Of a stretch of DNA of 30,004 bases, positions 2 to 26,335 are shown piece after piece. The DNA is from a virus. The notes below the pieces were generated by a model. The model had not been told where the DNA came from. It saw only the letters and a list, made by a program, of their open reading frames with translations, and did no database searches. Position numbers and translations under genes: made by a program. Each line of letters begins with the position of its first letter. Position 1 is the first letter of the stretch. The stretch lies in the IMG/VR virus record IMGVR_UViG_3300032240_000404, positions 1 through 30,004 of that record. One strand, written 5' to 3'.

Positions 2-1720
2 GGTGTGTTGCATCACTTTGGTGGCGAACCCGGCATTCTTGCCAGCATGCGCCTGAAAGACCGTAAAGGCCCCAACGGTGAGAAGCTGTTGCACCTTGAA
101 GAGTTGCAGTCCGACTGGCATCAAGAAGGGCGAGACAAAGGCTATACAACACTCACACCAAAAGAATTGGAAGAGTTAAGGGCATTGACCAGAAGAGAAG
201 TGGAAGAAGATGGATTGTTTCCTCATGACATGTCTCGCTCCAGAGAACTTGAAGCAAAAATTGGCGAAGTCCCCAATGCCCCATTCAAAAAAAACTGGGA
301 AGAGATGGCGCTCAAGCGTCTGGTGCATCACGCCGCAGAAAAGGGCTACCACGGCATTGTGGTGACTCCCGGTCAAGAACAGGCTGATAGATACCCTAGA
401 CGAGAAGAAACTGAAAAGCTTGCCCAAGAAAAAGGCATGAAGTCTTTTTACGATAGCAAAGTGCCCAACATCCTCAACAGCATCGGCAAGAAGTACGGCG
501 TGAAGACTGAGTTGCATGGACACAAGTTGCCCGGCGACCCATCACAGCGCGGCGATGCATCAGAGCGCCTTGGTGTGGCTCATGTACCTCTTGCTGGCAT
601 GAACCCAGAGCAAGTGCAGGCATTCAATCAAAGACTGGATGACGCAAACGCAAAGCACCTGCATCACTTCCCTATCACAGAAGACATGCGAAAAGACGTA
701 TTAACCAATGGCCTGCCCTTGTATGCAGAGGGCGGCATCATCCATAAAGCCGGAGGCGGATCAATGCGTGGCTACACAGTTGGCTCGTCAGTGATTAAAG
801 ACACCAGCAAGACGGTGCAAAATCAGGGCGGTATGAATGCCACGGTGGCTAAAGCCAATCAAGCACAAGCTGAGGCAGGTGCCGCAATTGCCGCAAGCAT
901 GAGCCCAGCACAACAGAATGCAATGCAATCAATTGCTCTAGCAATGATGCCCGGCCCAATTGGACTTATTGCCAGACTTGTGATGATGGCGCAACAAAAC
1001 AATAGCGCAGAAGGCCCAGCATCTACTCCAGCACAGGCCGCTACACAAAGTTCTAATGCGGACTCACCGGGAAGCACGGCATCAAAAGCCGCCGTCATAT
1101 CAAACGCAATGGATAACAATTTGGGAATAATCTCAAACCCCGCGCCTGCTGAAAGTACATCTGGAGATACATCAGGAAGCTCTGTTGGCGAAGGATCTGG
1201 AATAGGTATTGGTTCTGGCGCTACAAGCGCAGGATCAACTGGTATTGCGGCAAACGCATCTGTTGGAGCCCAAGCCGTTGGCATGACAAGCGGCCCAAAT
1301 GGCCCTGCTGGTGCCGTAGGTGAAGGTAGCGCAAGCGGCGATGGCGGCTCATCGTCTGGAGGAGGCGGAGGTGGTGGAGGCGGAGGAGGCTGTTGCTTCA
1401 TCATGCTAGAAGCTCGCTACGGCAACGGCACCATGGACTTTGTAGTGCGTCGCTATCGTGATGAAAAGATGACCGATAGAAACCGTCGTGGCTATTACAA
1501 GCTTGCTGAAGTATTTGTTCCTTTGATGCGGAAATCCAAACTGTTTAAGTTTATGGTTACTAAAACATTTGCCGATCCATTGGTAAGCTATGGCAAGTAT
1601 TACTATGGTGAAAATAGATGGGGTTGGATATTTAAGCCGCTTGAAAAATTCTGGCTTGGGTTGTTTGATACGCTGGGAACAAAGACTAAATTCATTCGTG
1701 AGAATGGCGAGGTTGTGTGA
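2..1720 (+). CDS. 3' part of a large phage polyvalent protein with poly-Gly linker and CFI-box C-terminus (partial)
   Basis: The reading frame is open to the left edge, so this is the C-terminal part of a longer protein; the GTG at 5 is probably not its start. About residues 1-245 match a conserved domain I associate with phage polyvalent proteins: LEELQSDWHQEGRDKGY, then NAPFKKNWEEMALKRLVHHA, GMKSFYDSKVPN and an ending ITEDMRKDVL..GLPLY. A YAEGG/KAGGG element follows, then an Ala/Met-rich helical stretch (about 275-335) and a Ser/Gly/Ala-rich linker. Twelve glycines at 451-462 precede Cys-Cys-Phe-Ile. The last 110 residues (CFIMLEARYGNGTMD, RRYRDEKM, GYYKLAEVFVPLM) resemble CFI-box C-terminal domains. 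The enzymatic role is unknown; transfer with the DNA or action early in infection is only inferred from the polyvalent family. The stop overlaps the next start (TGATG). Confidence 0.75.
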   Translation, partial: GVLHHFGGEPGILASMRLKDRKGPNGEKLLHLEELQSDWHQEGRDKGYTTLTPKELEELRALTRREVEEDGLFPHDMSRSRELEAKIGEVPNAPFKKNWEEMALKRLVHHAAEKGYHGIVVTPGQEQADRYPRREETEKLAQEKGMKSFYDSKVPNILNSIGKKYGVKTELHGHKLPGDPSQRGDASERLGVAHVPLAGMNPEQVQAFNQRLDDANAKHLHHFPITEDMRKDVLTNGLPLYAEGGIIHKAGGGSMRGYTVGSSVIKDTSKTVQNQGGMNATVAKANQAQAEAGAAIAASMSPAQQNAMQSIALAMMPGPIGLIARLVMMAQQNNSAEGPASTPAQAATQSSNADSPGSTASKAAVISNAMDNNLGIISNPAPAESTSGDTSGSSVGEGSGIGIGSGATSAGSTGIAANASVGAQAVGMTSGPNGPAGAVGEGSASGDGGSSSGGGGGGGGGGGCCFIMLEARYGNGTMDFVVRRYRDEKMTDRNRRGYYKLAEVFVPLMRKSKLFKFMVTKTFADPLVSYGKYYYGENRWGWIFKPLEKFWLGLFDTLGTKTKFIRENGEVV

Positions 1721-3834
1721 TGACAAATACAAATGAAGGCGGGTTCATTGAGGCGATAGGTGTCAATCACCTTGGTCGTGCGTTTAACAATGACGTAATG
1801 AACACCCTCGCCCACTTCCGCGATTCCTATATGGCAACACATCCAGAGGGATTAAAAGAGTTGGAGTGGTACTACAAGCATTCCCCACAAATCTCACATG
1901 CATTGCTTAGTAGCCCACATGGCAGGCAGGTCTCACAAGAAATTTTCACCAGATTTATTTACCCTGCTTACAAAGAAATTAAGCAAGGTCGCCTCAAACA
2001 AGCGCACGGGTTTATCAAAAAGTTCATTAAGTATTCCCAAGACCCTGTGCATCATGACAAGGTTGAAAAGGCCATTACCCATAAAGCAGAAGGCGGAACC
2101 ATGGATACCCCAGATTTAGCTCAATCAAGATTGGGCATGAACCAAAGATCAAATCCAGCACTGATGGACAACATCGGTATTGACGAAGCTTTGGACATGA
2201 GCCCCAAGCAGTTCATCAACCCTGATCCAAAAATGGCAGGATCACTTCCCGTGGGCGGTGTGGACAAGGTGGGTGGCCTACCTATTGGCGGCGTGGATCA
2301 AAGCCCGATGCCCGGCATGCAGTTCGCTCCACAAGCTCCACAACAGCCCCAGCAGGACGCAGGCGCTCCACAAGGAGGTTTGCCACCGTCCGCTGGTGCC
2401 AGTTCACCTGCACAGCAACAACCCGGCAACATGTTGAGCTTGACACCGCAGGGTCGAGCACTGGGCGCTATGGCACCGCAGGGCATGCCAAACAAAATGG
2501 CAAGTGGCGGCAGTGTGTCACCGCAGGATATGGCTGAGACGATCATGCGTTTGGAGAAGCACATAGAAAGCAGAGCCAAGGGCGGTGGCGTGGGTCACTA
2601 TGCGTCGAAGGGTGGAGTGAAGGACGAGCGCAACCACCCCGCTGTATTCCCACCAAGCCCCACAATCCCCAAGCAAGATATTGCCGCCATGGCTGAACGC
2701 ATGGCACGCCAAATAACAGGCGAAACGAATCCCAACAAGAAAACAAAACAACAAATTGAGCGGGAAAAGAATTTGCCAGTTGATTTGCGCACAACAGGCA
2801 CGCTTCAGCACATGCCTGAGATCAATATGGAGGAGCACAAAGGAGCCCACCTTATTGGCATCCCCGGCGATACTAGCGTTGGCGGGTTAGAACAAAAAGC
2901 GCATGAATTGGAGCCAGCAAAAGCCGCCGTACATTTGCATGGAATTGGCGAAAAAGAATTTGAGCACTCTGTGCCAATGTTTGGCGGAATGCATTACGGC
3001 GCTTATGGACATCCAGAAGCATGGGCAAGCAATAGGGCTGGCGTAGAGCCTTTGCAAACATCCGTTGAAGCCATTCATGAACTTGATCCTGAAGCAAAAA
3101 TACTGGGTCAATATGTCAAGATGACCCCGCAGTCTTTGGACTTTGCTTTGCATAATCTTGATGCCTTGTTGGCGTATCAAGAGCCGCACAAGTTTCCCAA
3201 AGAACACAAGGAACACATCAACAAATTGTTAAAAGAGCCATACCTTGGATATAAGGCATATGAGGCTTCGCCCGGCATTGAAGACCCGCTGGAATTGCTG
3301 TTGCATTCTCAATTGAACAGCGACTTCAGAAAGAAGATTGTCAAAGTCTTATCAACCAAAAAGAATTTACCAAAAGGCTCGCGCACTTGGGAAGATGTTA
3401 TTTATGCAATCAGTCATCCAGAATTGCGCAATCTAGAAACAGGAGTGTCTGGCGGCACTATGGTTCAAATGGATCCGCATCGCAAAGCAGTGGAATTGAT
3501 ATCTTCGCACCCTAGTTACAAACACGACCTGCCATCCAAAATCATTGGTCAAAGAAGTATGATGGCCCCCGCAGAGATTGCATACCCACGATCAACTTAC
3601 TACGCCAAAGAACACATTAAAACATTGCCTGTTAAAAAGCAGAAGCACACGCAAGTCTTTGGTACGGCGAAGAGTATTGGCTTTAGAGAACCTATTGATG
3701 AGCAATACATCAATCAGTTGGGTGAATATGAAACTCAATTAAGGCGCAGACTACTCGGCAAGAAAAAAGGCGGCAATGTCAGCCTGAATGAAATGAAACT
3801 TGAGTTGGCACGCAAATCAAAAAAGGTTAAATGA
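1720..3834 (+). CDS. Multidomain phage protein: FRD/YY helical domain, Pro/Gln linker, polyvalent-associated domain
   Basis: I chose ATG 1720, which overlaps the previous stop by one base; GAGG at 1709-1712 is a suitable ribosome binding site. Residues 1-125 (LAHFRDSYM, GLKELEWYYKHSPQISHALL) look like the helical half of CFI-box domains, echoing the C-terminus of the upstream protein. KAEGG, then a Met/Pro/Gln-rich linker (about 145-260), ASGGS and RAKGGG follow. The C-terminal 420 residues are a compact domain with WASNRAGVEPL and ILGQYVKMTPQSLDFALHNLDALL, a pattern I have seen in phage polyvalent proteins, though I can name no reaction. The protein ends KKKGGNVSLNEMKLELARK, similar to the KGGK-I-SL ends of genes at 16.5-17.8 kb. 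Its place directly before the portal gene suggests a virion-associated or injected protein. Function is not assigned. Confidence 0.7.
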   Translation: MTNTNEGGFIEAIGVNHLGRAFNNDVMNTLAHFRDSYMATHPEGLKELEWYYKHSPQISHALLSSPHGRQVSQEIFTRFIYPAYKEIKQGRLKQAHGFIKKFIKYSQDPVHHDKVEKAITHKAEGGTMDTPDLAQSRLGMNQRSNPALMDNIGIDEALDMSPKQFINPDPKMAGSLPVGGVDKVGGLPIGGVDQSPMPGMQFAPQAPQQPQQDAGAPQGGLPPSAGASSPAQQQPGNMLSLTPQGRALGAMAPQGMPNKMASGGSVSPQDMAETIMRLEKHIESRAKGGGVGHYASKGGVKDERNHPAVFPPSPTIPKQDIAAMAERMARQITGETNPNKKTKQQIEREKNLPVDLRTTGTLQHMPEINMEEHKGAHLIGIPGDTSVGGLEQKAHELEPAKAAVHLHGIGEKEFEHSVPMFGGMHYGAYGHPEAWASNRAGVEPLQTSVEAIHELDPEAKILGQYVKMTPQSLDFALHNLDALLAYQEPHKFPKEHKEHINKLLKEPYLGYKAYEASPGIEDPLELLLHSQLNSDFRKKIVKVLSTKKNLPKGSRTWEDVIYAISHPELRNLETGVSGGTMVQMDPHRKAVELISSHPSYKHDLPSKIIGQRSMMAPAEIAYPRSTYYAKEHIKTLPVKKQKHTQVFGTAKSIGFREPIDEQYINQLGEYETQLRRRLLGKKKGGNVSLNEMKLELARKSKKVK

Positions 3835-6284
3835 TGGCAGACGATATCAACATAGACGAACAAGAAGACGGCTCGGCGGTCGTCGATATGCCCGAGATGG
3901 ACGTTGAGGAGCAACCCGACGGTTCAGCTATTGTCGAAACCGAAGACGGCCCCGAATTCAATCCAGAGTTCTACGACAACCTTGCCGATGTAATTGATGC
4001 CAACGAGTTGTCCGAGTTGACCATGCGTTACATGGATCTGCTGGAGAGCGACAAGCAGGCGCGTGAGTTGCGCGACAAGCAGTACGAAGAGGGTATCAAG
4101 CGCACAGGCATGGGCAACGATGCGCCCGGCGGTGCCACCTTCATGGGTGCCAGCAAAGTGGTTCACCCCGCCATGGCTGAGGGTTGTGTGGACTTTGCCT
4201 CACGCGCCATCAAAGAAATGTTCCCGCCTGATGGCCCTGTTAAGTCAAAGATTGTCGGCAAGCAAGACGACATCAAGTCTGCAATATCAGAGCGCAAGGT
4301 CAACTACCTGAACTGGCAGATCACCGAACAGATTGAAGAGTTCCGCGACGAGCAAGAGCAAATGTTGACTCAATTGCCGCTGGGCGGCTCGCAGTATTTC
4401 AAGATTTGGTTTGACGAAGAGAAGAAGCGCCCATGCGTGGAGTTCCTGCCGATTGATCGAGTCATCCTGCCATTTGCGGCAACCAACTTCTACACCGCCC
4501 AACGTGCGGCTGAAGTGCACGAGATTACAACTCATGAGCTTGAGCGCCGCATCAAGTCGGGCATGTACCGTGATATCAGTTACATCAAAGCCTCTGAGTC
4601 AATTGAAGAAGGCAAGGTAGCTCAGGCCAACAACAAGGTTGAAGGCAAGCGATTCCAAGAAAACAAAGACGGCTTGCGCAAGGTCTTTCACATTTACACC
4701 TATTTGGAACTGGAAGACGACAAGCACACCAAAGGCAAGATGGCACCGTACATCTTGATGATTGACGAGTTGGACAACGAGGTGCCTGGCCTGTACCGCA
4801 ATTGGGAAGAGAACGACGAGACGATGACCAAGTTGGATTGGATCGTAGAGTTCAAATTCATCCCATGGCGTGGTGCCTATGCCATTGGCTTGCCTCACCT
4901 GATCGGCGGCCTCAGCGCGGCGCTGACGGGCTCCCTGCGTGCTTTGTTGGACTCGGCGCACATCAACAACGCCGCCACCATGCTCAAGCTCAAGGGCGCA
5001 AAGATCTCTGGTCAAAGCCAGCAAGTTGATGTCACCCAGATCGTGGAGATTGAAGGCGCACCCGGCGTGCAGGACATCCGCCAAATCGCTATGCCCATGC
5101 CGTTCAACCCGCCCAGCCCCGTGCTGTTTGAGTTGCTGGGCTTCTTGGAAAAGGCCACCAGCAGTGTTTTGACCACGGCTGAGGAGAAGATAGCCGACAT
5201 CAGCGCACAGGCTCCTGTGGGCACCACGCAGGCCCTGATTGAGCAGGGTTCACAGGTGTACTCATCCATCCACGCACGCCTGCACCAATCACAGGCTCGC
5301 GTGCTGAAGATCCTGTGCCGCTTGAACCGCTGGCACTTTAACGACATGCAGAAGTCGGATGTCGTCACTGATCTGGAAGTCACCCGCGAAGACTTTGCCA
5401 AGAACACCGACGTGGTGCCAGTCTCTGACCCGCACATCTTCTCTGAAACCCAGCGCATGGCTCAGAACCAAGCTGTGTTGGCGCTGGCTGAAAAGCATCC
5501 TGACCAGTTCAACATGGGCAAGGTAATCAGTCGCCTGCTCAAGCAGATGAAGATTCCTAACATCAACGAGATCATGGTGGATCAGCCGTCGCCTGAACAG
5601 CGCACTTCTGCGGATGAGAATGCCGCCATGCTGATCGGTCAGCCTGCCTATGCATACATTCAGCAAGATCACATTGCGCACATTCAAGATCACTTGCAAT
5701 TTGCAATGAACCCGTTCTTGGGCCAGTCGCCATTTGCCGATCCGAACTACCTTAATAACCTGATTGAGCACGTCAAGCAACACATGACCTTGTGGTACTT
5801 GAACCGATCTAACGGATATGTGCAAAAAGCCACAGGCAAACCGTTGGAAAATTACAACGATCCCAAATACACCCCAGTGGTTGACAAGCTGTACACGGTG
5901 GTTGGTGCCCATGTGATGATGGACACGCAAGAAGTATTTAAAGACTTCATGCCGTCGTTTGAGAAGTTGGTGCAGATGGCGCAACAGCGCAAGAATCAGC
6001 CACCACAGTTGCCGCCTGACGCTCAGGTTGTTAGAGACACATCCATGGCAGAAACACAGCGCAAGACTGCGGCAGATCAAGCCAAGCAAGCATATGAGCA
6101 AGCCAAATTGCAAATGGATCAACAACTGCATGCGATGGACAACCAGACCAAGGTTGAAATTGAGAATGCCAAGCTGACTCACCAAACGATTCAGCACGCA
6201 ACCGAGTTGGCGTTTACGCCACCACCCGCCGCACCTGCGGCACCACAACCACCACAAGGAGCCCCAAATGGCATCGGACAATGA
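3831..6284 (+). CDS. Portal protein (podovirus-type)
   Basis: The portal is the dodecameric ring at one capsid vertex through which DNA is packaged and ejected. At 817 residues this fits large podovirus-type portals. The core is recognisable from MGASKVVHPAMAEGCVDFASRAIKEMFPP, followed by LGGSQYFKIWFDEEKKRPCVEFLPIDRVILP, WIVEFKFIPWRGAYAIGLPHLIGGLS and TAEEKIADISAQAPVGTTQALIEQG. The acidic N-terminus repeats DGSA(V/I)V at residues 13-18 and 30-35, a motif also found in the scaffold candidate. The last 110 residues are Gln/Ala-rich and probably coiled coil (MAETQRKTAADQAKQAYEQ), ending in a Pro-rich tail. The start overlaps the upstream stop (ATGATG, 3831 or 3834) with AAGG just upstream. Confidence is high for portal, lower for the exact family. 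Confidence 0.88.
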   Translation: MMADDINIDEQEDGSAVVDMPEMDVEEQPDGSAIVETEDGPEFNPEFYDNLADVIDANELSELTMRYMDLLESDKQARELRDKQYEEGIKRTGMGNDAPGGATFMGASKVVHPAMAEGCVDFASRAIKEMFPPDGPVKSKIVGKQDDIKSAISERKVNYLNWQITEQIEEFRDEQEQMLTQLPLGGSQYFKIWFDEEKKRPCVEFLPIDRVILPFAATNFYTAQRAAEVHEITTHELERRIKSGMYRDISYIKASESIEEGKVAQANNKVEGKRFQENKDGLRKVFHIYTYLELEDDKHTKGKMAPYILMIDELDNEVPGLYRNWEENDETMTKLDWIVEFKFIPWRGAYAIGLPHLIGGLSAALTGSLRALLDSAHINNAATMLKLKGAKISGQSQQVDVTQIVEIEGAPGVQDIRQIAMPMPFNPPSPVLFELLGFLEKATSSVLTTAEEKIADISAQAPVGTTQALIEQGSQVYSSIHARLHQSQARVLKILCRLNRWHFNDMQKSDVVTDLEVTREDFAKNTDVVPVSDPHIFSETQRMAQNQAVLALAEKHPDQFNMGKVISRLLKQMKIPNINEIMVDQPSPEQRTSADENAAMLIGQPAYAYIQQDHIAHIQDHLQFAMNPFLGQSPFADPNYLNNLIEHVKQHMTLWYLNRSNGYVQKATGKPLENYNDPKYTPVVDKLYTVVGAHVMMDTQEVFKDFMPSFEKLVQMAQQRKNQPPQLPPDAQVVRDTSMAETQRKTAADQAKQAYEQAKLQMDQQLHAMDNQTKVEIENAKLTHQTIQHATELAFTPPPAAPAAPQPPQGAPNGIGQ

Positions 6285-9285: not shown

Positions 9286-10200
9286 ATGGCCGCACCAATG
9301 CGAAGTACGGACTTTAGAAGCATCGTTGAACCAATTTTGAACGAGTGCTTCGATGGAGTCTATGACCAACGTGCCGACGAATGGTCACGCATCTTCCGCG
9401 AAGAAGATGGTATCCCTCGTAACTACCACGAAGAGCCTGTCCTTTATGGATTTGGAGCCGCACCCCAGTTGCCTGACGGTACTCCTGTCAGCTACCAACA
9501 AGGTGGTGTATTGTTCTTACAGCGTTACCTCTACAAAGTGTATGGCTTGGCCTTCTCTTTGACCAAGGTACTCGTTGAAGACGGCGACCACATCCGTTTG
9601 GGTCAAGTTTATGCACGCCACTTGGCACAGTCTTTGGTGGAAACCAAGGAACTGTTAGCCGCCAACGTGCTGAACACAGCCTTCAACTCCAGCTACCCCG
9701 GTGGCGACGGCGTGTCTTTGATTAACACTGCCCACCCCATCGTGAATGGTACTTTCAGCAACCAGTTGACTACCGCCGCTGTTCTGTCTCAAACATCTCT
9801 CGAACAGATGTTGATCCAGATCCGCTCAGCAGTTGACAACAACGGCAAGAAGATTCGTTTGGTTCCACGTCAATTAATCGTGGCACCCGGCAACATCTTC
9901 CAAGCTGAAGTGTTGTTGAAATCTGTTCTGCGTACTGGTAACGCAAACAACGACATCAACCCCATCAAGTCAATTGGCTTGCTGGACGAAGGTGCCGCAG
10001 TCATTTCTCGTTTGACATCTGCAACTGCATGGTGGGTTCAGACCGATGCTCCAGAGGGCTTCAAGCTCCTGATGCGTCGTCGTTTGGAGAAAACCATGGA
10101 AGGTGACTTCGAGACTGACACAATGCGCTACAAAGCGACAGAGCGTTATGCGATCAACTTTACTGATCCCCGTTGCGCTTTCGGCACGCCCGGCGTGTAA
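9286..10200 (+). CDS. Major capsid protein (Mu gpT-like, HK97-type fold likely)
   Basis: The 304-residue protein has features of phage major head subunits: N-terminal FRSIVEPILNECFDGVYDQ, a central segment on tag-free helices (ARHLAQSLVETKELLAANVLN), GGDGVSLINTAHPI, LRRSAVD-type helix (LEQMLIQIRSAVDNNGKKI), RLVPRQLIVAPGN and a C-terminal strand block (WWVQTDAPEGFKLLMRRRLE, YKATERYAINFTDPR). The GKKIRLVPRQLIVAP segment is typical of gpT-like capsid proteins. TAAGGAG overlaps the upstream stop, giving a strong ribosome site, and a terminator follows directly. There is no N-terminal prohead protease domain or obvious cleaved delta region. Confidence is good for major capsid, moderate for subfamily. 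Confidence 0.83.
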   Translation: MAAPMRSTDFRSIVEPILNECFDGVYDQRADEWSRIFREEDGIPRNYHEEPVLYGFGAAPQLPDGTPVSYQQGGVLFLQRYLYKVYGLAFSLTKVLVEDGDHIRLGQVYARHLAQSLVETKELLAANVLNTAFNSSYPGGDGVSLINTAHPIVNGTFSNQLTTAAVLSQTSLEQMLIQIRSAVDNNGKKIRLVPRQLIVAPGNIFQAEVLLKSVLRTGNANNDINPIKSIGLLDEGAAVISRLTSATAWWVQTDAPEGFKLLMRRRLEKTMEGDFETDTMRYKATERYAINFTDPRCAFGTPGV

Positions 10201-11534: not shown

Positions 11535-13244
11535 ATGTCTAATTTCAAACCAATGGTGAAGATGTACACCGATGAGCCTGCTGTGAGCTTGAAGCTCAAA
11601 AAAGGCGGCAAGGTGCATCACAAGGGTGCCAAGCATCACAAAGAGCATGATGAGCATGGTCACAAGCCTATGCATCATGCTATGGGTGGTATGCACCACG
11701 AAGCAGAAGCAGGTCACAGCCCTAAAAAGCCGTCACATGCGGCACGTCACAAGGCCATGAACCCCAACTTGTATGCCAAAGGCGGCAAGGTGGCTCATAA
11801 GCTCATGGGCGGCGTAATGCCTGCTGGCGCTCCTCAAGGCATGGGTATGAGCCCTCAAGGCATGCCCGGCATGACTGGCGTAGGCATGGGCTCACCAACA
11901 ATGCCCAAAGCATTGCGTCCTGCCGCAATTGCCAATATGGCACCTAGCGCACAAGCTCAACGTGCCGCGATGGTCAAGAAGGCATTGATGGGCATGAAAA
12001 AAGGCGGATCTGCTGACCACAAGCACATTGAAGCCTTGGAAAAAGAACTCCATCATCATGAGTCCATGAGCATGGAACATGCCCACCACAAGAAGCACGG
12101 TGGCATGGCGCACCACGCCCATGGTGGTAAGGTGCACCACATGACTGGTCATGCAGAAGGCACCCATGAGCACCACAAAGCCATGGCAAAGCACTATGCA
12201 GAAAAATGCAAAGACGGCGGCACACCGCACATGCACAAGATGCATGAGCACCACAAGCACATGGCAAAAATGTGCAAGGGTGGTAAGTATGCTGAAGGCG
12301 GCGCAATTGACCGTGACATGACCAAGACCACGCTCAAAAACAGCGTGAAGCCATTTGTATCCCGTGCCGACACCTCACGCCCTGACCACTCTCCTGCTCA
12401 CACGGGCGAGATCCACAAGGGCAATGGCGGTGGTTACAAGCGTGGCGGTACTACAGGCGCTAAAACGCCTATGTACAAGACCAAAGAGTACGCCAAAGGT
12501 GGTCGCACCACTGGTTCACACATCCCAAGCGAGACAAACGAGAGCGAGACTCGCGGCAAGATTCGTCTTGGTGGCACCATTGAGGATAATGAGCACTATT
12601 ACGAAAATACCGACATGCACTCAGCCAAACCTGACCGCTCACAAGGCAAGACAGGTGAAGTGCATATGAGCAATGCTGGTGGCTTTAAGCATGGTGGCAA
12701 GGCTCATCACAAGATGCATCACAAGGCTGATGGCGGTGCTATCGACAAGTACCAAACTCGCAACACCGTAGAAGGCGGCGACTGGGAAAACCACCCTGCT
12801 AATACCACCCCTACAGGCAAGAAACACACCGTCACAGGCGTTGTTAAGCTTGCCAATGCAGGTGGCTATAAGCATGGAGGCAAAACCTCAAAAAAAGCCT
12901 ACGCCACGGGGGGTGAAGTGAATGATATGGGGAAATCTGTAAAGATGCCTCTTCGTATCAAACACCCACCTGTGGCGAATAGCTTGCAGTCTGGCACCTA
13001 TAAGCGTGGCGGCAAGGTTCACCATCATGCTGATGGCGGCGAAGAAAAAGGGGAAAAGGAATTTTCACCTTGGGCAAAACTAAACAAGTCTCCAAAAGAA
13101 CGTCATAATTTAGTAAATGCACCTGTTTCGTCATACAGTGAAGAAGCCGTAAACAAATCAATTGCAAGCTCCAACCGTTCTGGTCGCAAGATCAGCGGTA
13201 AAGAGGCAAAAGCAATCCACAGCCTGCTTAAAGGTCGTCACTGA
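11535..13244 (+). CDS. His/Lys/Gly-rich repetitive KGG protein
   Basis: Strong AGGAGG at 11524-11529 precedes ATG 11535. The 569-residue product is low-complexity, with dozens of His, Lys and Gly and few large hydrophobics. Residues 1-270 contain HHKGAKHHKEHDEHGHK, a Met/Pro/Gly segment (about 90-130) and repeated HH, HK pairs. Residues about 269-500 hold four imperfect repeats, each an Asp/Ser/Thr-rich stretch ending in NAGG(Y/F)K-x-GGK. K-x-GG, AKGGK and AEGG elements recur throughout. The tail is a short basic SGKEAKAIHSLLKGRH. Metal binding or nucleic-acid binding would fit the composition, but no fold or family with a known role is recognised. Location among virion genes suggests an internal or ejected protein (inference). 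Confidence 0.72.
   Translation: MSNFKPMVKMYTDEPAVSLKLKKGGKVHHKGAKHHKEHDEHGHKPMHHAMGGMHHEAEAGHSPKKPSHAARHKAMNPNLYAKGGKVAHKLMGGVMPAGAPQGMGMSPQGMPGMTGVGMGSPTMPKALRPAAIANMAPSAQAQRAAMVKKALMGMKKGGSADHKHIEALEKELHHHESMSMEHAHHKKHGGMAHHAHGGKVHHMTGHAEGTHEHHKAMAKHYAEKCKDGGTPHMHKMHEHHKHMAKMCKGGKYAEGGAIDRDMTKTTLKNSVKPFVSRADTSRPDHSPAHTGEIHKGNGGGYKRGGTTGAKTPMYKTKEYAKGGRTTGSHIPSETNESETRGKIRLGGTIEDNEHYYENTDMHSAKPDRSQGKTGEVHMSNAGGFKHGGKAHHKMHHKADGGAIDKYQTRNTVEGGDWENHPANTTPTGKKHTVTGVVKLANAGGYKHGGKTSKKAYATGGEVNDMGKSVKMPLRIKHPPVANSLQSGTYKRGGKVHHHADGGEEKGEKEFSPWAKLNKSPKERHNLVNAPVSSYSEEAVNKSIASSNRSGRKISGKEAKAIHSLLKGRH
12340..13020 (+). repeat. Four degenerate in-frame repeats in the KGG protein
   Basis: Units lie roughly at 12343-12450, 12586-12705, 12739-12885 and 12940-13017. 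Each has a polar segment with Pro/Ser/Asp, usually a T-G-E/K-x-H or TG-x-V element, then NAGGYK or GGGYK and a basic GG(K). Spacing varies, so this is protein-level repetition rather than a recent DNA tandem array. Confidence 0.6.
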
Positions 13245-13288: not shown

Positions 13289-15946
13289 ATGTCACAAATC
13301 GTTGCATACACTGGCCCAACATCACAGTCAGACAATCAACTTCGCACTCAAACATCATCACGCTCTGCGGCATATGACCCAGTAGACAAACTGCGCGTAT
13401 CCCAGCCACAGGCATTGATTGATACCGACTTTGAGTATGGTCAACAGCCAACAAAGTGGGAATCAATTAACCTTCAAAACAATCGTCAAGGCGCGTATTA
13501 CATTCCGCAAATACAGACGGCTGTTCTTAACAATGCCTCAAATAAAGGCATTCAAACAACAAACGGAAGCCGTACTGTTACTGTTTTCATGGCGGATACT
13601 AGTGCTTACTCTGTTGGCACTCCAATTTTTATTCAGGGCGCAACAAACCCCAACATCAATGGCTGGTGGCTAGTTACGACTGTTTCTGCAAGCACTTCTG
13701 TGTCGTTCTTGATTGATGCCAATGCAACAGCAACGACCAACGTGTTCAACCCCGGCAAGTCCTATGTGTACCCCGGTTACTTTTACAGCAACTGCGGCTT
13801 CCAAGTTGGTAGCAACTGCATTACTGCAAGCGCAACCACAACTCCTCTTTGCACAACCACCTATCCTCACGGGTTGAATGTAGGTGACTACATTTACATG
13901 GTTGGCTTTGCCACCGACACCAATGTAAATGGTGCATGGATTGTTGCAACAACCCCAACAGCCAGCACATTTACTTTTACAACCGCAGTGGCGGTTACCA
14001 GCCCGACAAACAGTGCAGGCCAGACCAATGTATATATGCGCCCTGCTGGATGGGTTGAGTCTCGTCCATATGATGGTGGCGTGGCATTCTCTGCTGGTGG
14101 TACGATTACCAACCAACAGTTGATTCGTCAGACCCGTCGTTACTTTCGCTACCAGTCTGGTAAGGGCATTCAATTCTCAACTGGCTCTGCATTGTGTCCA
14201 ACTCTGTTTCAGCCAGTGTTGACTGCTGTTGGCACCACGGTGACGGTTACCACCTCTGCACCGCACAACCTTGCGGCAGGCGGAACAGTTCAAGTGTCTG
14301 GCGCAACTCCTGCACAGTACAACGGCACGTTCACAATTTTGTCTGGTGGTTTTTCCAAAACCACGTTTACATATCAGACCACCGTACTAAACACACCTCC
14401 GTCAACACCTGCGACTGGTAATGCAATTCGCGTTAATCCAATCACATGGTACGGCGCTCAAAACTCAGTAGGTATCTTTGATCAGCAAAACGGCATATTT
14501 TTTAGATATGACGGTCAAAACCTGACTGCTGTTGTTCGCTCATCAACCATTCAAACGGCTGGCTATTGCCAAGTAACGCAAGGAAATGCAACGGTTACTG
14601 GTGTTGGAACTAACTTCACCACTGCGTTGGTTCCGGGTCAATTCTGCGTGATTCGCGGTCAGTCATATCGTGTTATTGCAATTGCAAGCGACACATCTTT
14701 GACCATTGCCCCTGAATATCGCGGAAACAGTTACGACTCCACCAATTCGCCAAATGGCGGATATATCATGTCTGTCACCACGGACTACATATATCCTCGC
14801 TCTACTTGGTTTGATCCAATGGATGGCACTGGCCCATCGGGCTATAACCTTGACTTAAGCCGCATGCAAATGTGGTACGCCGATTACTCTTGGTATGGCG
14901 CTGGCTCAATTCGCTGGGGCTTGAGAGGCAAGGATGGCGCAGTGACATACTGCCATCAAGTCCAGAATAACAACGTGCAATATGAAGCTTACATGCGGTC
15001 TGGCAACCTGCCAGCGCATTACGAGTCTTCAGGCTTGACACCGACAACATATTTGACTGCGTCAATTGGCACCACGGACACCACAATTCCTGTGGCTGAC
15101 GCAAGCTTGTTCAATACAAGCGGACTGGCAAAGCTCACAGCAAGCGGAATTTCTGGCGCAATTGAGTATGTCACCTACACAGGCAAGACTGCAACGTCAT
15201 TGACTGGATGTGTTCGTGGTCAAACTGGCGGTGCGGCGGCAACAGCGTTCACTTACAGCGCAACAGCATTTGTGACCGTTGAATATGCAACTGCTGACTC
15301 TGTGCCTTCAATCTCGCATTGGGGCTCATCGGTCATCATGGATGGTCAGTTCAACGACGATAAATCGCTGATTTTCAACTACGGCATGACAACCCCATTG
15401 GCGGTTACCTTAGCGGGTTCCTATGCGCTGATGGCAATCCGTATTGCTCCATCAGTAGATAACGGCACTACAAACACCTTGGGATTGAAAGAAAACATTA
15501 ACCGCATGCAGTTGCAACTTGACTCGGTGTCAATCATTGCATCGACTTCGCAGGTGTTGATTAACTTGATTTTGAACGGTCGTCTTGCGGCGGCTTTTTC
15601 TGGAACTGGCGCTCAAGCCACATTTGTTTCACCTCAACAACTTGCTAACGGATTTACTTCTTCTTTGGCGCAAATTGCTGTAAATGGAGCAACTGGAACT
15701 ACGGCAACAATCACGGGTGGCGAATCATTGGCGGCTTCGTACGTTCCAATTGGCATCAATACGTTGGATTTGTCAGGTGTGCGCGATTTGGGCAATTCAA
15801 TCTTGGGTGGCGGTGTAAACAACACTGTGCCAACAACTCAAGCTGGCTTATACCCTGATGGGCCAGACATTTTGTATGTAGTTGCAACCACAACTGGTGC
15901 GGCAAACATTCAAGCTCGTTTGTCTTGGAAAGAAGCACAGGCTTAA
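13289..15946 (+). CDS. Large virion structural protein with inserted beta domains
   Basis: 885 residues starting behind AAGGA at 13278-13282. The N-terminus carries [29 protein letters not shown] (about 31-58), which I recognise as a conserved start of large phage structural proteins. Three inserted beta modules follow, with [29 protein letters not shown], and [23 protein letters not shown] at about 100-360. The middle has [23 protein letters not shown] and [22 protein letters not shown]. The C-terminal third has [20 protein letters not shown], a conserved virion-protein signature. Signal peptide and membrane segments are absent. It is probably a major virion component, but whether head fibre, whisker or tail is unclear. 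Confidence 0.72.
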
Positions 15947-15947
15947 T

Positions 15948-16460
15948 ATGCCAAGCAAGTCACCCGCTCAACACAAGCTCATGGAAGCCGCCGCCCACAC
16001 AAAAGGTGGGTTTGGCGGTGTCCCTCAGAAAGTCGGCAAAGAATTTGTCCGCGCCGATAAACACATGAAAGAAGGTGGTCTTTATGCCAATATCAATGCA
16101 AAGCGTGAAAGAATCGCTGAAGGCTCTGGTGAGCGCATGCGTAAGCCGGGTGCAAAAGGTGCTCCAACTGCTCAAGCCTTCAAGCAATCAGCCAAAACCG
16201 CCAAATTAAAGGATGGAGGCGCTTCCCTTGCCGTTGGCAGAGGTGAGAAGCTCCCAACCTCCAAAGGCGCTGGATTGACCAAAAAGGGGCGTGAAAAGTA
16301 CAACCGTGAGACTGGATCACACTTAAAGGCTCCACAGCCACAAGGTGGCGCACGCAAGGATTCGTTCTGCGCCAGAATGAGCGGCGTGGTAGAGCATTCC
16401 AAGGGTGACGCACCAAGGGCGAAAGCATCGTTAAAACGCTGGGACTGTCCCGGTTGGTAA
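15948..16460 (+). CDS. DUF6321-like basic protein
   Basis: ATG 15948 directly follows the upstream stop (TAATATG); a start at 15882 would run inside the previous gene. The 170-residue protein is Lys/Gly/Arg-rich: KGGFGG and KEGG at the N-terminus, then the conserved block [31 protein letters not shown], and [12 protein letters not shown]. That block is what I know as DUF6321, found in many phages, of unknown function. The protein ends in Trp like the three small proteins downstream, and its stop TAA touches the next AAGG ribosome site. A DNA-binding or minor virion role is inferred from basicity. Confidence 0.75.
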
Positions 16461-16470
16461 AGGAAAAATC

Positions 16471-16902
16471 ATGTTTTTAAAATCAAGCCCAGCAGTCAAA
16501 AGCGCAGTCAAAAACGCCATGGAGCGCATGGAAAAAGGCGAGTTTGACAAAGCTCCGACCCGAGAAGAAACAGAGGGCCGCATGGCGGCTCGCAAAAAAG
16601 ATAGCGAAAACAAAGAGCGTGAAAACGCAAAACGTGATGCCGCTGATTTGCCCAATCTGCAAAAACAACATGCAGAGATGCAAGAAAAATATAGCAAAGG
16701 CAAGAACTACGAGTACGCCGACCGAGAGCAAAACCTGTCAGATGAAGAGCTTGAAGCTCGGGGTATGCGCGGAAGCATGAACCAATTGGCTCAACGCATT
16801 CACAATGTCAAAAAGCATGGCTTCAAGCAGGGTGGCAAGATAAATCTGAAGGATTGCAAAGTGTCTACCCACGAAAAAAATAGCAAGCACAAAAACTGGT
16901 AA
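16471..16902 (+). CDS. Small basic protein with C-terminal KVSTH..W tag (first of three)
   Basis: 143 residues, starting at ATG 16471 behind AAAGGA. A charged helical N-terminal two thirds (SAVKNAMERMEKGEFDKAPTR, AARKKDSENKERENAKRDA, LPNLQKQHAEMQEKY) is probably coiled coil. SDEELEARGMRGSMNQLAQRI follows. The C-terminus GGKINLKDCKVSTHEKN, ending KHKNW, matches the tails of the next two proteins. The stop TAA is the first part of the TAAGGAG that serves the next gene. No known domain is recognised. The shared tail suggests a common partner or location. Confidence 0.7.
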   Translation: MFLKSSPAVKSAVKNAMERMEKGEFDKAPTREETEGRMAARKKDSENKERENAKRDAADLPNLQKQHAEMQEKYSKGKNYEYADREQNLSDEELEARGMRGSMNQLAQRIHNVKKHGFKQGGKINLKDCKVSTHEKNSKHKNW

Positions 16903-16912
16903 GGAGTAAATC

Positions 16913-17209
16913 ATGGCTGATCGCAAAAAACCACACGAATTTACAGTTGGCGAAAAAGCTGATGGCACCCGCGTCTATATGATTGATGGAGCCGTAGTGC
17001 CGGACAAAACAACATGGGCAAATTTGCGTCAAAAAAATGCGGACGTTGCAAGTCAAACCATGGACGAAGTTGAAAAAGAAGCTGACTCAGCCATGAACAA
17101 CTCAGGAAATTCAGAGTTGGACAGCATGTTTAGCAAAGCCAAGGGTGGCAAAGTAAAAAAGAGCAAAGTTACAACTCATCACAAAAACCACAAGCATCCC
17201 GCTTGGTAA
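16913..17209 (+). CDS. Small protein with C-terminal KVTTH..W tag (second of three)
   Basis: 98 residues, ATG 16913 behind TAAGGAG. The N-terminus (KPHEFTVGEKADGTRVYMID, then GAVVPDKTTW) resembles a small beta unit. A polar helix follows (TMDEVEKEADSAMNNSG), then SMFSKAKGGKVKKSKVTTHH ending KHPAW. Unlike its neighbours, the tail lacks the Cys before KVSTH. The stop TAAGGA again overlaps the next ribosome site. Function is unknown. Confidence 0.68.
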   Translation: MADRKKPHEFTVGEKADGTRVYMIDGAVVPDKTTWANLRQKNADVASQTMDEVEKEADSAMNNSGNSELDSMFSKAKGGKVKKSKVTTHHKNHKHPAW

Positions 17210-17218
17210 GGATTCATC

Positions 17219-17755
17219 ATGCCAAATTGGAAGTCAAAATCAGATACTGAAGTTTGGTGGTCAAACCAGCCCGGCAATCGCGGCAGGACATACCCCGGCG
17301 ATGATATTGCCGAAAAACAGTATCAGCGCAACCAAGCCGCTGGTGAAAACAATTTAAGCAGGCTCCGCAATTTTTTCTTTGGTAAAAGCGACGAAAGGAA
17401 GCGCGCCGTCGAGGATGCGGTGAATGCTCGTCGTGATGCAGGCACTTCAATGAAGTTGGAGCCCTATGTTGCTCCCAACCGTGATAGCGGGATCAGCATA
17501 AATGAATTTGGCGATCGACCGTCTTTTGTTCCTCCGCGAAGAGACAAGCGAGGTAATATAAGTCTTTATGAAGTAAACGAACCTGTGCCAACAGAAGGCC
17601 GTGCCGATTACGAAGATGTCAAGCCCGTTGATTACGACAGCTATGGCTTGAAAAAGGGCGGAAGTGCCAAAAAACACGCCAAGGGCGGTAAAATCAGTTT
17701 AGATAATTGCAAAGTATCTACGCATCAAAAGAACAAAAAGCAACCAAATTGGTAA
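17219..17755 (+). CDS. Small protein with C-terminal KVSTH..W tag (third of three)
   Basis: 178 residues, ATG 17219 behind AAGGA. The N-terminus is aromatic and polar (PNWKSKSDTEVWWSNQPGNRG), then RLRNFFFGKSDERKRAVEDA, and a Pro/Arg/Asp-rich middle without predicted fold (FVPPRRDKRGNISLYEV). The C-terminus is KKGGSAKKHAKGGKISL, then DNCKVSTHQKNKKQPNW, matching the first protein of the trio. The stop TAA continues into AAGG of the next gene. No family is recognised. Placement before an adaptor-like gene suggests a virion protein. Confidence 0.7.
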   Translation: MPNWKSKSDTEVWWSNQPGNRGRTYPGDDIAEKQYQRNQAAGENNLSRLRNFFFGKSDERKRAVEDAVNARRDAGTSMKLEPYVAPNRDSGISINEFGDRPSFVPPRRDKRGNISLYEVNEPVPTEGRADYEDVKPVDYDSYGLKKGGSAKKHAKGGKISLDNCKVSTHQKNKKQPNW

Positions 17756-17764
17756 GGTGAAAAC

Positions 17765-18838
17765 ATGGCTTACAGCGGCACCGTTGGGCAAACTGTAATT
17801 ACAGTACAGAACTTCATTGACCAAGGTGCACGCTTGGCGGGTAAGCTTGCCGAAGAACTTACCGTTGAGCAGGTTCAAGCCTCCAAGCAGGCGCTCTTTT
17901 TTGTCTTGAGCAATCTGATCAATCAAGGCATTAACTACTGGGCGATCAATCAGCAGGTATACGGCCTTCAGCCGAATCAATTCGAGTATCTGCTACCTGT
18001 GGGTGGTGTGGATGTTTTAAACGTCCTGTACCGCACCATGACGCGCCCCAGCGGGTCTTATTCCAGCAGTGCAGGCGGCACCACTGGAAACATCTACGAT
18101 GGCGACACATCCACCTACAGCCAGCAAACTTCTGCCAATGGCAATTTTGTCGTCTATTACGGTTCTAGCAACACTCAGTACATTGGATCTATTGGCATCA
18201 TGCCCTATGTGTCTGGCGGAGGATCGGCGGTATGGAATTACTACCTGCAAAGCTCGACCGACGGAACGACGTGGACAACCCTTTACACAGGCACCAACGT
18301 CACGGTGACGGATGGACAGTGGATATTCCAAAATATTGATCCCGGTGCCAATGTCGCCTACTACCGCATTCAAGCCTTTGGCGGCACCACCTTGGCTCTG
18401 TATGAGTGGTATTTGGGCACAAACAGTACAGAGATCATGATGGCTCGCTTAAACCGCGACGACTACACCAATTTGCCCAATAAGAACTTCACAGCCAATC
18501 AGCCGTATCAGTTCTGGTTCAATCGTCAACTGCCGCAGGCAAAGATTACCTTATGGCCTACCCCCTCAAATGCCTTTGTGCAAATGGTGGTGTGGTACTC
18601 GCGCCAGATTGACGACGTGGGGGCATTGAGCGGTCAACTGGAGATTCCACAGCGATGGAATCAGGCAATTCAATACATGCTGGCTCATGAGATGAGCTTG
18701 ATCCTGCCTTCGGTTGAAATGCCAAGAATCCAATATTTGGACATGCAGGCTCAGAAGTATTTCATCATGGCTGAGAACGAAGAGCGCGACAAGTCGCCGA
18801 TTTATTTCAGCCCCAACATTTCCGTGTACACAAAGTAA
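17765..18838 (+). CDS. Adaptor-like structural protein (P22 gp4-like pattern) with inserted discoidin-like domain
   Basis: 357 residues. The outer parts (about 1-93 and 220-357) follow the pattern of head-to-tail connector proteins: helical TVEQVQASKQALFFVLSNLIN, YWAINQQVYGLQPNQFEYLLP, DVLNVLYR, then LNRDDYTNLPNKNFTANQP, ITLWPTPSNAF and a C-terminal helical segment with RWNQAIQYMLAHEMSLILP. Residues about 94-219 look like an F5/8 type C (discoidin-like) beta-sandwich: GNIYDGDTSTY, IGSIGIMPYVSGG, YYLQSSTDGTTWTTLYTG and VAYYRIQAFGG. These domains usually bind glycans or other surface ligands. A role at the portal-tail junction is inferred; the P22 gp4 assignment is by pattern only. Confidence 0.68.
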   Translation: MAYSGTVGQTVITVQNFIDQGARLAGKLAEELTVEQVQASKQALFFVLSNLINQGINYWAINQQVYGLQPNQFEYLLPVGGVDVLNVLYRTMTRPSGSYSSSAGGTTGNIYDGDTSTYSQQTSANGNFVVYYGSSNTQYIGSIGIMPYVSGGGSAVWNYYLQSSTDGTTWTTLYTGTNVTVTDGQWIFQNIDPGANVAYYRIQAFGGTTLALYEWYLGTNSTEIMMARLNRDDYTNLPNKNFTANQPYQFWFNRQLPQAKITLWPTPSNAFVQMVVWYSRQIDDVGALSGQLEIPQRWNQAIQYMLAHEMSLILPSVEMPRIQYLDMQAQKYFIMAENEERDKSPIYFSPNISVYTK

Positions 18839-19228: not shown

Positions 19229-21073
19229 ATGAGCGGACAAGTAACGATAACCCAACTGCCAACCGCTTCTGCTCTTACAGGGGCGGAAGCAGTTCCTGTC
19301 GTTCAAAATGGAGTGACAGTCCAAACTACTGCGAGCGCAATTTCTGGCGCAGGCGCGTTGAACTATCCATTTTTGACAGTAGGTTCAGCCGCTGGCCTAA
19401 CTCAAGGCAGATATCTCTCGGCATCCACAGGGCTGTCTTTGTCAGATACTGGCGCTGGTGGCATGCTGACTATCAACATGACAGGGGCGGCATCAAGCTT
19501 AAACAGCGCAAGCACAGGATTTATCGTCAAGGACAGCGCCAGCACGGTCGCCAGCCGATCATTTGCAGTTGGCTCGGGCATGACCATATCCAATGCTGAC
19601 GGCATATCTGGCAACCCTACGTTTGGCTTGAGCACCATTTTGCAAAATCTTGCCAGCACTTCATCAGCAGGCATATTGGCATTAAATGGCACCACGATTA
19701 CGGCGTACACATTGCAGGGCGTTACTAGTCAGACTAGTATTGCCAACGGCAATGGAGTTGGTGGAGCCCCAACGATTGGACTGGCAAGCAACCCTGTAGT
19801 GCCCGGCACTGGATCAATCACCATTCCAAGTGGCACAACTGCACAGCGAACTGGATCAACTGCTGGCCTGCGCTACAACACCGACACAGGCTTGTTTGAA
19901 GGTTATGGCTCAAGTGGCTGGGCGGCTTTTTCGGGTGGAGGTGGAGGTGGAAGTGTTACCTCAATTGCCACTGGGACGGGCCTTACAGGTGGGCCTATTA
20001 CAACGACAGGCACGATTTCGCTTGCTAATACTGCCGTTTCCGCAGGTTCCTATACCTACGCCAGCATCACCGTGGATGCGCAAGGCAGGTTGACCAGCGC
20101 ATCATCTGGAAGCACTTTAGGCATTGCAGGTGGTGGTACTGGTCAAACAACTGCGAATGCCGCATTCAATGCGCTGGTGCCAAGCCAAACCAGCAACTCT
20201 GGCAAATACCTGACAACTGACGGAACCAATACATCTTGGGCAACAGTCTCAGGTGGCGGCGGTGTCTCAAGCATCACCTTTGGCACAACCGGGTTGACTC
20301 CAAACACAGCAACAACAGGTGCTGTGACTGTTGCTGGCACCTTAGCTGTTGCCAATGGCGGCACAGGCGTGACCGCATCAAGCGGAGCAACTTCAGTTGT
20401 CTTGCGCGACGCAAGCGGCAACATCACTACAAATTCAATATTTGAAGGCTTTTCAAATGTAGCCGCCGCAGGTACAACGACTGTACTTACAGTCGCCTCA
20501 GTTCCGAACTATGTAGTCACCGGATCGGGCGGTCAGACATATCAATTGCCTGATGCCACTACATTGCCAAATGGTGCCGACTTCACATTTAACAACAATC
20601 AAAGTAGCGGAACAATTGTTGTTAAAAACAATTCAAGCACAACGATTGTCACTGTACAGTCTGGTTCATTTGTAACTGTCAGCCTGTTGAGCAACTCAAC
20701 TGCCGCAGGTTCTTGGGATTACCATGCTGGCATTCCATCAGGCACTTCATGGTCTACGAATACCCTGAGCACAGGCGCGGCAATCACATCGACACAAGCG
20801 GTTACTGGTAGCACGCTTATTTCTAACGTGGCGACTGGCACCGCTCCGTTGACCGTGACCAGCACCACGCAGGTGGCAAACCTGAATGCGGCAACCGCAG
20901 GAACAGCAACCAATGCAACAAACGTGGCGTTATCAGCAGGCACGGGTGCGACCAATTATTTGACATTCTCTGCAACCGCAACGGGCAATCAGCCCTTAAC
21001 AACCAATACTCTCCTCACCTACAATTACACCAACAATACCATCACAGCAGGTATTTCAGGTGGAGCTTTCTAA
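19229..21073 (+). CDS. Tail fibre protein 1
   Basis: 614 residues beginning MSGQVTITQLPTASALTGAE, a common fibre start (joining segment). It is Gly/Ser/Thr/Ala-rich and repetitive, with SGTGIS/GTGLTGGPITTTG-type repeats, AGLRYNTDTGLFEGYGSSGW (a domain seen in several fibres), AGGGTGQTT and ANGGTGVT. A C-terminal part has YQLPDATTLPNGADFTFNNN and KNNSSTTIVTVQSG, typical of fibre beta domains. The end is GISGGAF, also seen (GISAGAF) in the gene at 26.3 kb. The fibre probably trimerises and contacts the host surface. The host receptor cannot be told. Confidence 0.76.
   Translation: MSGQVTITQLPTASALTGAEAVPVVQNGVTVQTTASAISGAGALNYPFLTVGSAAGLTQGRYLSASTGLSLSDTGAGGMLTINMTGAASSLNSASTGFIVKDSASTVASRSFAVGSGMTISNADGISGNPTFGLSTILQNLASTSSAGILALNGTTITAYTLQGVTSQTSIANGNGVGGAPTIGLASNPVVPGTGSITIPSGTTAQRTGSTAGLRYNTDTGLFEGYGSSGWAAFSGGGGGGSVTSIATGTGLTGGPITTTGTISLANTAVSAGSYTYASITVDAQGRLTSASSGSTLGIAGGGTGQTTANAAFNALVPSQTSNSGKYLTTDGTNTSWATVSGGGGVSSITFGTTGLTPNTATTGAVTVAGTLAVANGGTGVTASSGATSVVLRDASGNITTNSIFEGFSNVAAAGTTTVLTVASVPNYVVTGSGGQTYQLPDATTLPNGADFTFNNNQSSGTIVVKNNSSTTIVTVQSGSFVTVSLLSNSTAAGSWDYHAGIPSGTSWSTNTLSTGAAITSTQAVTGSTLISNVATGTAPLTVTSTTQVANLNAATAGTATNATNVALSAGTGATNYLTFSATATGNQPLTTNTLLTYNYTNNTITAGISGGAF
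19723..19739. repeat. 17-bp palindrome, copy 2
   Basis: TACTAGTCAGACTAGTA, identical to 6369-6385, here in the tail fibre 1 gene (codons for TSQTS in GVTSQTSIANG). Confidence 0.85.
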
Positions 21074-25693: not shown

Positions 25694-26335
25694 ATGAGCA
25701 ATACACCATCATGGGTCATGACTTATGACAGCCTGAATTACTACGTTCTGCAATATCTGGAGCGTTCTGATCAGGCGACCATCAATGCCATTCCCACGTT
25801 CATCACACTTGCTGAGTTTGAGATTGCCCAAGAGATCAAGACCTTGGGCCAACTTCAGATTGTTGAAGCCAACATGACGGCGGGAAGTCCCAACCTGCAA
25901 AAGCCTGCACGTTGGCGCAAAACAGTGTCAATGAACTACACCGATGCCAGCGGGAATAAGAACCCTGTGCTCTTGCGCAAGTATGAGTACTTGATCAACT
26001 ACTCGCAGAACAGTTCAACCACTGGTGCGCCGCTGTACTATGCAGACACAAGCTGGGACTGGTGGTTCATTTCCCCGACCCCCGACCAAGCATATGCGCT
26101 TGAGGTTCTGTACTACGAGCGCATCCAGCCGCTGAGTTCAACAAATCAAACCAACTGGCTGACACAGAATGCACCAAATGCCATGCTGTTTGGCACTTTG
26201 TTGCAAGCAATGCCTTTCCTTAAAAACGACCAACGACAGATCTTCCAGCAGAAATACATGGAGGCCATCAAGTCTCTGAAAACTGAGGATGTTTCTAGAG
26301 TTGGAGATCGCCAAGCACTTGCCGTGGACAGCTAA
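25694..26335 (+). CDS. SU10-type head-tail adaptor protein
   Basis: 213 residues behind GGGGAAAA. The chain follows the SU10 adaptor family: MTYDSLNYYVLQYLERSD, IPTFITLAEFEIAQEIKTLG, KPARWRKTVSMNY, a RKYEYLINY helix, TGAPLYYADTSWDWWFISPTPD, YYERIQPLSSTNQTNWL and TLLQAMPFLKND. These proteins form a ring beneath the portal and link it to the tail. It is followed by a fibre-like and a nozzle-like gene, which makes 25.7-30 kb a tail-building block. A second adaptor-like protein is encoded at 17.8 kb. Confidence 0.8.
   Translation: MSNTPSWVMTYDSLNYYVLQYLERSDQATINAIPTFITLAEFEIAQEIKTLGQLQIVEANMTAGSPNLQKPARWRKTVSMNYTDASGNKNPVLLRKYEYLINYSQNSSTTGAPLYYADTSWDWWFISPTPDQAYALEVLYYERIQPLSSTNQTNWLTQNAPNAMLFGTLLQAMPFLKNDQRQIFQQKYMEAIKSLKTEDVSRVGDRQALAVDS

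Follow-up and report, generated by a model that had tools for sequence, protein, structure and literature searches.

A conserved C-terminal tail on unrelated small proteins of an uncultured phage lineage, and its possible role as a particle-loading tag

The window analysed here is the complete 30,004-base IMG/VR record IMGVR_UViG_3300032240_000404, a phage contig with a podovirus-like head module (Table 1). Its genes code for a portal protein, a GroES-like protein, a scaffold-like protein, a major capsid protein, a lysine-rich GG-repeat protein and a large virion protein (phrog_5838), together with a DUF6321 protein, three small ORFs that carry the tail described below, an adaptor-like protein and fibres. 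The major capsid protein is 94% identical to that of MW202545, a Manatee Spring genome, and 76% identical to that of Caulobacter phage RW; judging from these named relatives, the carrier phages are an uncultured lineage of mostly freshwater habitat. The N-terminal half of the DUF6321 protein matches phrog_16759/16028 and its C-terminal half is PF19846, a profile that exceeds its gathering score at this gene only (58.3 bits vs 28.5) and to which the three tagged ORFs show no match. The adaptor-like gene forms the 3' border of the tagged slot. Its product contains an F5/8 type C (galactose-binding-like) insert, slightly under the Pfam cut-off, and a second adaptor, of SU10 type, lies at 25694-26335. 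No Rfam elements were found within positions 15900-17900.

Table 1. Features of the window that bear on the tagged slot (strand given relative to the record).
Feature	Position	Strand	Remarks
Protein upstream of portal	1717..3834	+	ends KKGGNVSLNEMKLELARKSKKVK
Portal protein	3831..6284	+	phrog_1216, E 3e-23
Major capsid protein	9286..10200	+	PF25209, E 1.3e-11
Lys-rich GG-repeat protein	11535..13244	+	14 hydrophobic-x-x-GG-x copies vs 2 expected
DUF6321 protein, 170 aa	15948..16460	+	ends RWDCPGW
Tagged ORF 1, 143 aa	16471..16902	+	17-member alignment A3
ORF 1 tag, GFKQGGKINLKDCKVSTHEKNSKHKNW	16819..16899	+	profile match, E 7.7e-19
Tagged ORF 2, 98 aa	16913..17209	+	16-member alignment A2
ORF 2 tag, short variant, KAKGGKVKKSKVTTHHKNHKHPAW	17135..17206	+	profile match, E 1.7e-9
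Tagged ORF 3, 178 aa	17219..17755	+	alignment A4
ORF 3 tag, KHAKGGKISLDNCKVSTHQKNKKQPNW	17672..17752	+	profile match, E 2.3e-17
Adaptor-like protein (tail/head-tail; MAYSG...)	17765..18838	+	relative annotated 'tail adaptor' in MW202545

The original prediction, that three adjacent ORFs end in a common C-terminal tail, is borne out, with the tails exactly as first quoted, and alignments A2-A4 reveal that the tails are conserved in homologues. The shared tail spans about 23 residues and reads [FY]xxGGK[IV]xLxxCxV[ST]TxxKxKxxxxW-stop; the middle gene, ORF 2, carries a shorter variant without the LxxC stretch (GGKVKKSKVTTHHKNHKHPAW), and ORF 3 consists of a conserved N-terminus of about 70 aa, then a variable linker, then the tag. 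When ORFs are searched with a profile of the tag, the matches fall almost exclusively at the extreme C-terminus, and the last position is W in 92% of collected tags, with F making up most of the remainder. None of the family models in Pfam, NCBIfam or PHROG that matched covers the tag, and full-text searches of a literature library found no description of it. A tmRNA-type tag was rejected, the tail being gene-encoded and ending in W.

A pattern that describes only the first half of the tag (GGK[IV]xLxxCxVxT), leaving the downstream sequence unspecified, was run at the DNA level on IMG/VR viral contigs and on 84,980 cellular genomes. Among the 101 viral matches, the reading frame of 99 closes 22-25 residues downstream of the GG, with W as the last residue in 82, F in 16 and C in one, so that a terminal W or F is found in 98. 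The cellular genomes yielded 55 matches, by estimate about the number expected by chance, and none of these ends in W (viral vs cellular W-ending, Fisher p about 3e-26, with counts taken per contig and kinship ignored). Since the pattern is silent on what follows it, and yet the viral matches end alike while no cellular match ends in W, we conclude that the tag is not a product of chance. Terminal W is likewise concentrated in the slot itself, ending 16 of 17 matched slot genes in 12 related genome stretches vs 1 of 138 other head and tail genes. No close tag matches were found among 50,697 public phage records, where a 23-residue query has low power, and tblastn with the 23-residue consensus gave no match, short queries seldom reaching significance. 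Whole-protein tblastn with ORF 3 as the query likewise recovered no relative from viral contigs or phage records; loci had to be traced by way of the tag pattern and the DUF6321 neighbour, and this use of DUF6321 or the strict pattern leaves divergent tags under-sampled.

The collection comprises 155 distinct tagged proteins from about 165 loci, with ORF starts taken as the longest possible and counts made per contig, ignoring kinship. When the tag is removed before clustering, the bodies form 30-46 clusters according to the linkage chosen, 36 of them in the clustering adopted, and we count about 30-36 body families. The number is given as a range because single linkage chained the largest cluster, in which KSKSEKAF proteins are joined to relatives of ORF 1. 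Profile comparison joins a few of the body clusters, but not the three of the window, between which hhalign probabilities are 0.13-0.22%; the bodies are thus unrelated, as first proposed, and not full-length paralogues. Predicted secondary structure differs between the models of ORF 1 and ORF 2: that of ORF 1 is all-helical (pLDDT 75 overall, 41-53 in the tail), and that of ORF 2, at low confidence (pLDDT 62), has three strands and a long helix. The tails are predicted to be disordered on these two different folds. Foldseek searches with both models against the PDB returned nothing at E <= 0.001. Weak Pfam, NCBIfam and PHROG matches to the tagged bodies are sub-cut-off or marginal and are not believed; OrfB_IS605, ArfGap, Imm42, TRAP_S1, phrog_38725 and phrog_18412 were rejected as body identities on these grounds.

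Tags are present in 11 of the 21 genomes or records searched whole, and in each of these (tagged records of about 30-55 kb) they lie within a cluster of about 1 kb, the single exception being a weak match in a 1609-aa frame that covers the first 11 profile positions only. In the stretches read out, the cluster sits between the GG-repeat/DUF6321 genes and the adaptor gene. It behaves as an exchangeable cassette of 0-6 genes, flanked by the head genes on one side and the adaptor on the other, for which we recorded 48 gene orders. A comparison of the window with another locus (L003) illustrates this: the outer tagged genes are common to both, and the middle genes are unrelated, each with a variant of the tag. 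About half of the related records searched are without the long tag, which indicates that the tag system is dispensable. The portal, capsid and adaptor genes are equally conserved in tagged and untagged relatives; comparison of gene content led us to reject a receptor unique to tagged genomes, the head genes being the same in both.

Three lines of evidence suggest a link between the tagged proteins and the virus particle. The first is a homology of bodies. Locus L081 encodes a tagged body (MPLIKSKSEKAF...) that has a homologue in ORF22 of Pbunavirus SCUT-S1 (51% over 45 aa); mass spectrometry of purified virions detected the ORF22 protein with 7 peptides at 77% coverage (PMC6521218). The L081 body carries the short tag only (GGKCEW-type), and its Pbunavirus and Obolenskvirus relatives are tagless; likewise, the small virion protein of the phrog_2423/Pbunavirus gp20-like kind is homologous to the body of some tagged genes, but has no GGK...W tail. 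The small KSKSEKAF protein and the L081 body also show homology to the N-terminal part of a protein annotated as Obolenskvirus head maturation protease (L232, 4001-5329).

The second line is the recurrence of GG elements elsewhere in these genomes. The lysine-rich GG-repeat protein has the same KGGK head as the tag and is conserved in the genomes examined; most of its relatives carry FKPMVKM near the N-terminus. Relatives of the protein upstream of the portal are multidomain proteins (polyvalent-type, PcfJ) that end [FY]K[KR]GG[KR]V..., and polyvalent proteins of phages are believed to enter the virion and to be injected (PMC5512222). These upstream proteins are of the same style as polyvalent proteins and have related KGGK elements, but they differ from the tagged proteins in being large and multidomain, with a different and probably helical extension after KGGKV (DTMxxEL). 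Large proteins in this position were seen at L238 (1135-5916), L243 (22-4970) and L237 (441-6631), with a PcfJ domain in two of them and GGxV...D.M..EL elements both between domains and at the C-terminus. The third line is composition: like the GG-repeat protein, tagged bodies are rich in lysine, at a mean of 10.6% vs 0.7-3.4% in capsid, h199, fibres and adaptor, the portal and scaffold-like proteins being at 6-7%. This richness partly reflects the GG-repeat style, and an internal location does not follow from it.

Taken together, the virion-protein homologue of one body, the KGGK ends on polyvalent-type proteins and the lysine-rich bodies suggest, as the most economical reading, that the tail may load head-internal or ejected cargo into the particle, much like the T4 capsid-targeting sequence (CTS) but placed at the C-terminus; we would put this at somewhat below an even chance. 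Counting against it are the dispensability of the system and the short tag of the body with the virion-protein homologue. A short, disordered, basic motif with an aromatic end would recruit unrelated small lysine-rich proteins into the assembling particle by binding a head component (capsid, scaffold or portal), with the head interior or the portal vertex as the destination. The tagged proteins would then be packaged and perhaps ejected, and their bodies could be active at an early stage of infection or on the packaged DNA. A broader version of this proposal, which we consider rather doubtful, is that the tail represents an undescribed C-terminal loading code, in which one 23-residue tail would serve dozens of swappable cargoes and its KGGK head would also be found on large injected polyvalent proteins.

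The tag resembles known terminal cargo tags and differs from them in protein end, sequence and phage group. Encapsulin cargo-loading peptides are short and C-terminal and load unrelated cargo into HK97-fold shells, apparently with a sequence different from that of the phage tag. The T4 CTS is N-terminal and is removed by the gp21 prohead protease. As in the T4 CTS (IPI-IPIII, Alt), a short conserved terminal sequence is found on otherwise unrelated proteins; in contrast to the N-terminal CTS, the phage tag is strictly C-terminal, is unrelated in sequence and ends in Trp. The CTS sends diverse, fast-changing small proteins into the prohead core, and T4 internal proteins contact DNA through lysines (PMC3012670). 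A further parallel is with McdB, in which an invariant Trp in the C-terminal region docks on a polyhedral shell and other aromatic residues partly replace it (PMC11321042), much as the last residue of the phage tag is W, or F for most of the remainder; by this analogy the terminal Trp of the tag may be an anchor. However, McdB is a bacterial adaptor family that binds the outside of a microcompartment, and no McdB family appears among the Pfam, PHROG and NCBIfam matches of the window proteins.

The same parallel can be read another way. The tag may instead dock non-packaged accessory proteins on some factor of phage or host origin inside the infected cell, as in assembly chaperoning at the portal or adaptor, or in host takeover. 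The variability and dispensability of the slot, together with its position between head genes and adaptor, would suit an accessory slot, and an invariant C-terminal Trp is a known docking residue in binding of McdB to the carboxysome (PMC11321042). Against this, one body family is a virion protein elsewhere, and related KGGK elements stand at the end of proteins that belong to a presumably packaged kind; we regard non-packaged docking as unlikely. Less probable still is that GGK marks a proteolytic processing site, with the tail cut off after delivery and the same element separating domains in the polyvalent-type proteins. GG motifs do punctuate multidomain proteins, P1 DarA and DdrB are processed, and processing of T4 internal proteins is well established, but no prohead protease was recognised among the window head genes with Pfam and PHROGs, and the 23 residues after the GG are conserved through the last one, which a discarded remnant need not be.

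The evolutionary history of the tag bears on a third alternative, namely that the tail is chiefly a recombination joint, whose conserved gene ends allow body swaps by homologous recombination without any tag function. The 48 gene orders would fit such a role, as would the 22 of 134 tags whose DNA more closely resembles a tag from a different body family than tags from their own, with identities of up to 96%; these do show recent body exchange or tail copying in a minority of tags. However, codon use at the invariant residues is nearly free (diversity of 2.46 of 2.58 bits for Leu, 1.96 of 2.00 for Val and 1.92 of 2.00 for Thr), and DNA identity between tags on different bodies is only 0.61 within one genome and 0.58 between genomes, a pattern that indicates selection on the protein. 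Exchange looks like a consequence and not the cause, and we give the recombination joint very little credence. The same body in different genomes has a tag DNA identity of 0.71, which, against 0.58-0.61 on different bodies, points to a mostly old association of tag and body and not to recent tail copying. Gene birth by tail copying, which had been offered as one explanation, is therefore mostly unsupported, and in its recent form it was rejected as the general origin. Equally improbable is a basic tail that binds DNA and neutralises charge for small internal proteins without a specific receptor: the mean net charge of +4.6 over about 23 residues would suit it, but invariant G, G, L, C and T and a terminal W or F at fixed spacing are unneeded for neutralising charge.

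Should the tail prove to be a loading signal, every tag-bearing gene could be predicted as virion cargo without experiments, and uncultured freshwater phages would yield testable effectors from dozens of gene families that are now unknown. The T4 solution of one address for many cargoes would then have arisen independently at the opposite protein end, and the tag would offer a short peptide with which the loading of proteins into a different phage capsid could be attempted. If the broader loading code were true, a large set of unknown early-infection effectors would be discoverable by sequence alone.

The tail is an optional feature of two other gene types. One is the KSKSEKAF protein, whose versions in Pbunavirus, Obolenskvirus and Serratia phage MTx have no tag and whose versions in this lineage close with GGKCEW, GGKSGW or a similar sequence. 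The other is the small N-terminal partner of DUF6321: phage DSL-LC05 encodes it as a tagless gene of its own, and in several relatives it has a GGK...CW end. DUF6321 itself is split in two genes at seven loci (L031, L042, L045, L051, L053, L067 and L079), the first half ending GGK...CW (GGPIGSCW in L051) before a new start. The usual end of DUF6321 is RWxC, with RWKC in the tagless relatives L088 and L091, RWxCPGW in the window version and RWKCADGGKIKKHDIKGW at L077. The original prediction had linked the CPGW end to those of the tagged ORFs. A terminal Trp is indeed common to them, but it is all that they have in common, and CPGW was rejected as a copy of the tag.

All four gene ends in the window read TGG TAA (A)GG, as had been noted (stops at 16458, 16900, 17207 and 17753), and overlap of the stop codon with the next Shine-Dalgarno sequence is both real and enriched: it is seen in 96 of 155 tagged ORFs (62%) vs 27 of 138 other genes (20%; p about 1e-13). 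The suggestion that the stop is built into the next ribosome site stands to this extent, but not as a separate signal. The overlap occurs with TAA, TGA and TAG, and also after tails ending in F, and so does not reflect a fixed DNA element; for the same reasons TGGTAAGG was rejected as an independent DNA element, all three stop codons being used, also behind Phe. The TGGTAAGG junction is a terminal Trp plus an ordinary compact stop/Shine-Dalgarno overlap behind a conserved last residue. The first reading of this locus was right that different bodies share a tag, for which docking or packaging is still the best explanation, and went too far with tail copying, for the most part, and with a separate TGGTAAGG signal.

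Another C-terminal signature is present on fibre-like proteins of the window (19229-21073 and 26338-27657), which carry G-I-[SAF]-[GA]-G-[TA]-F at the stop. They end ITAGISGGAF and MPVGISAGAF, and such ends are also found on many fibre-like proteins of relatives.
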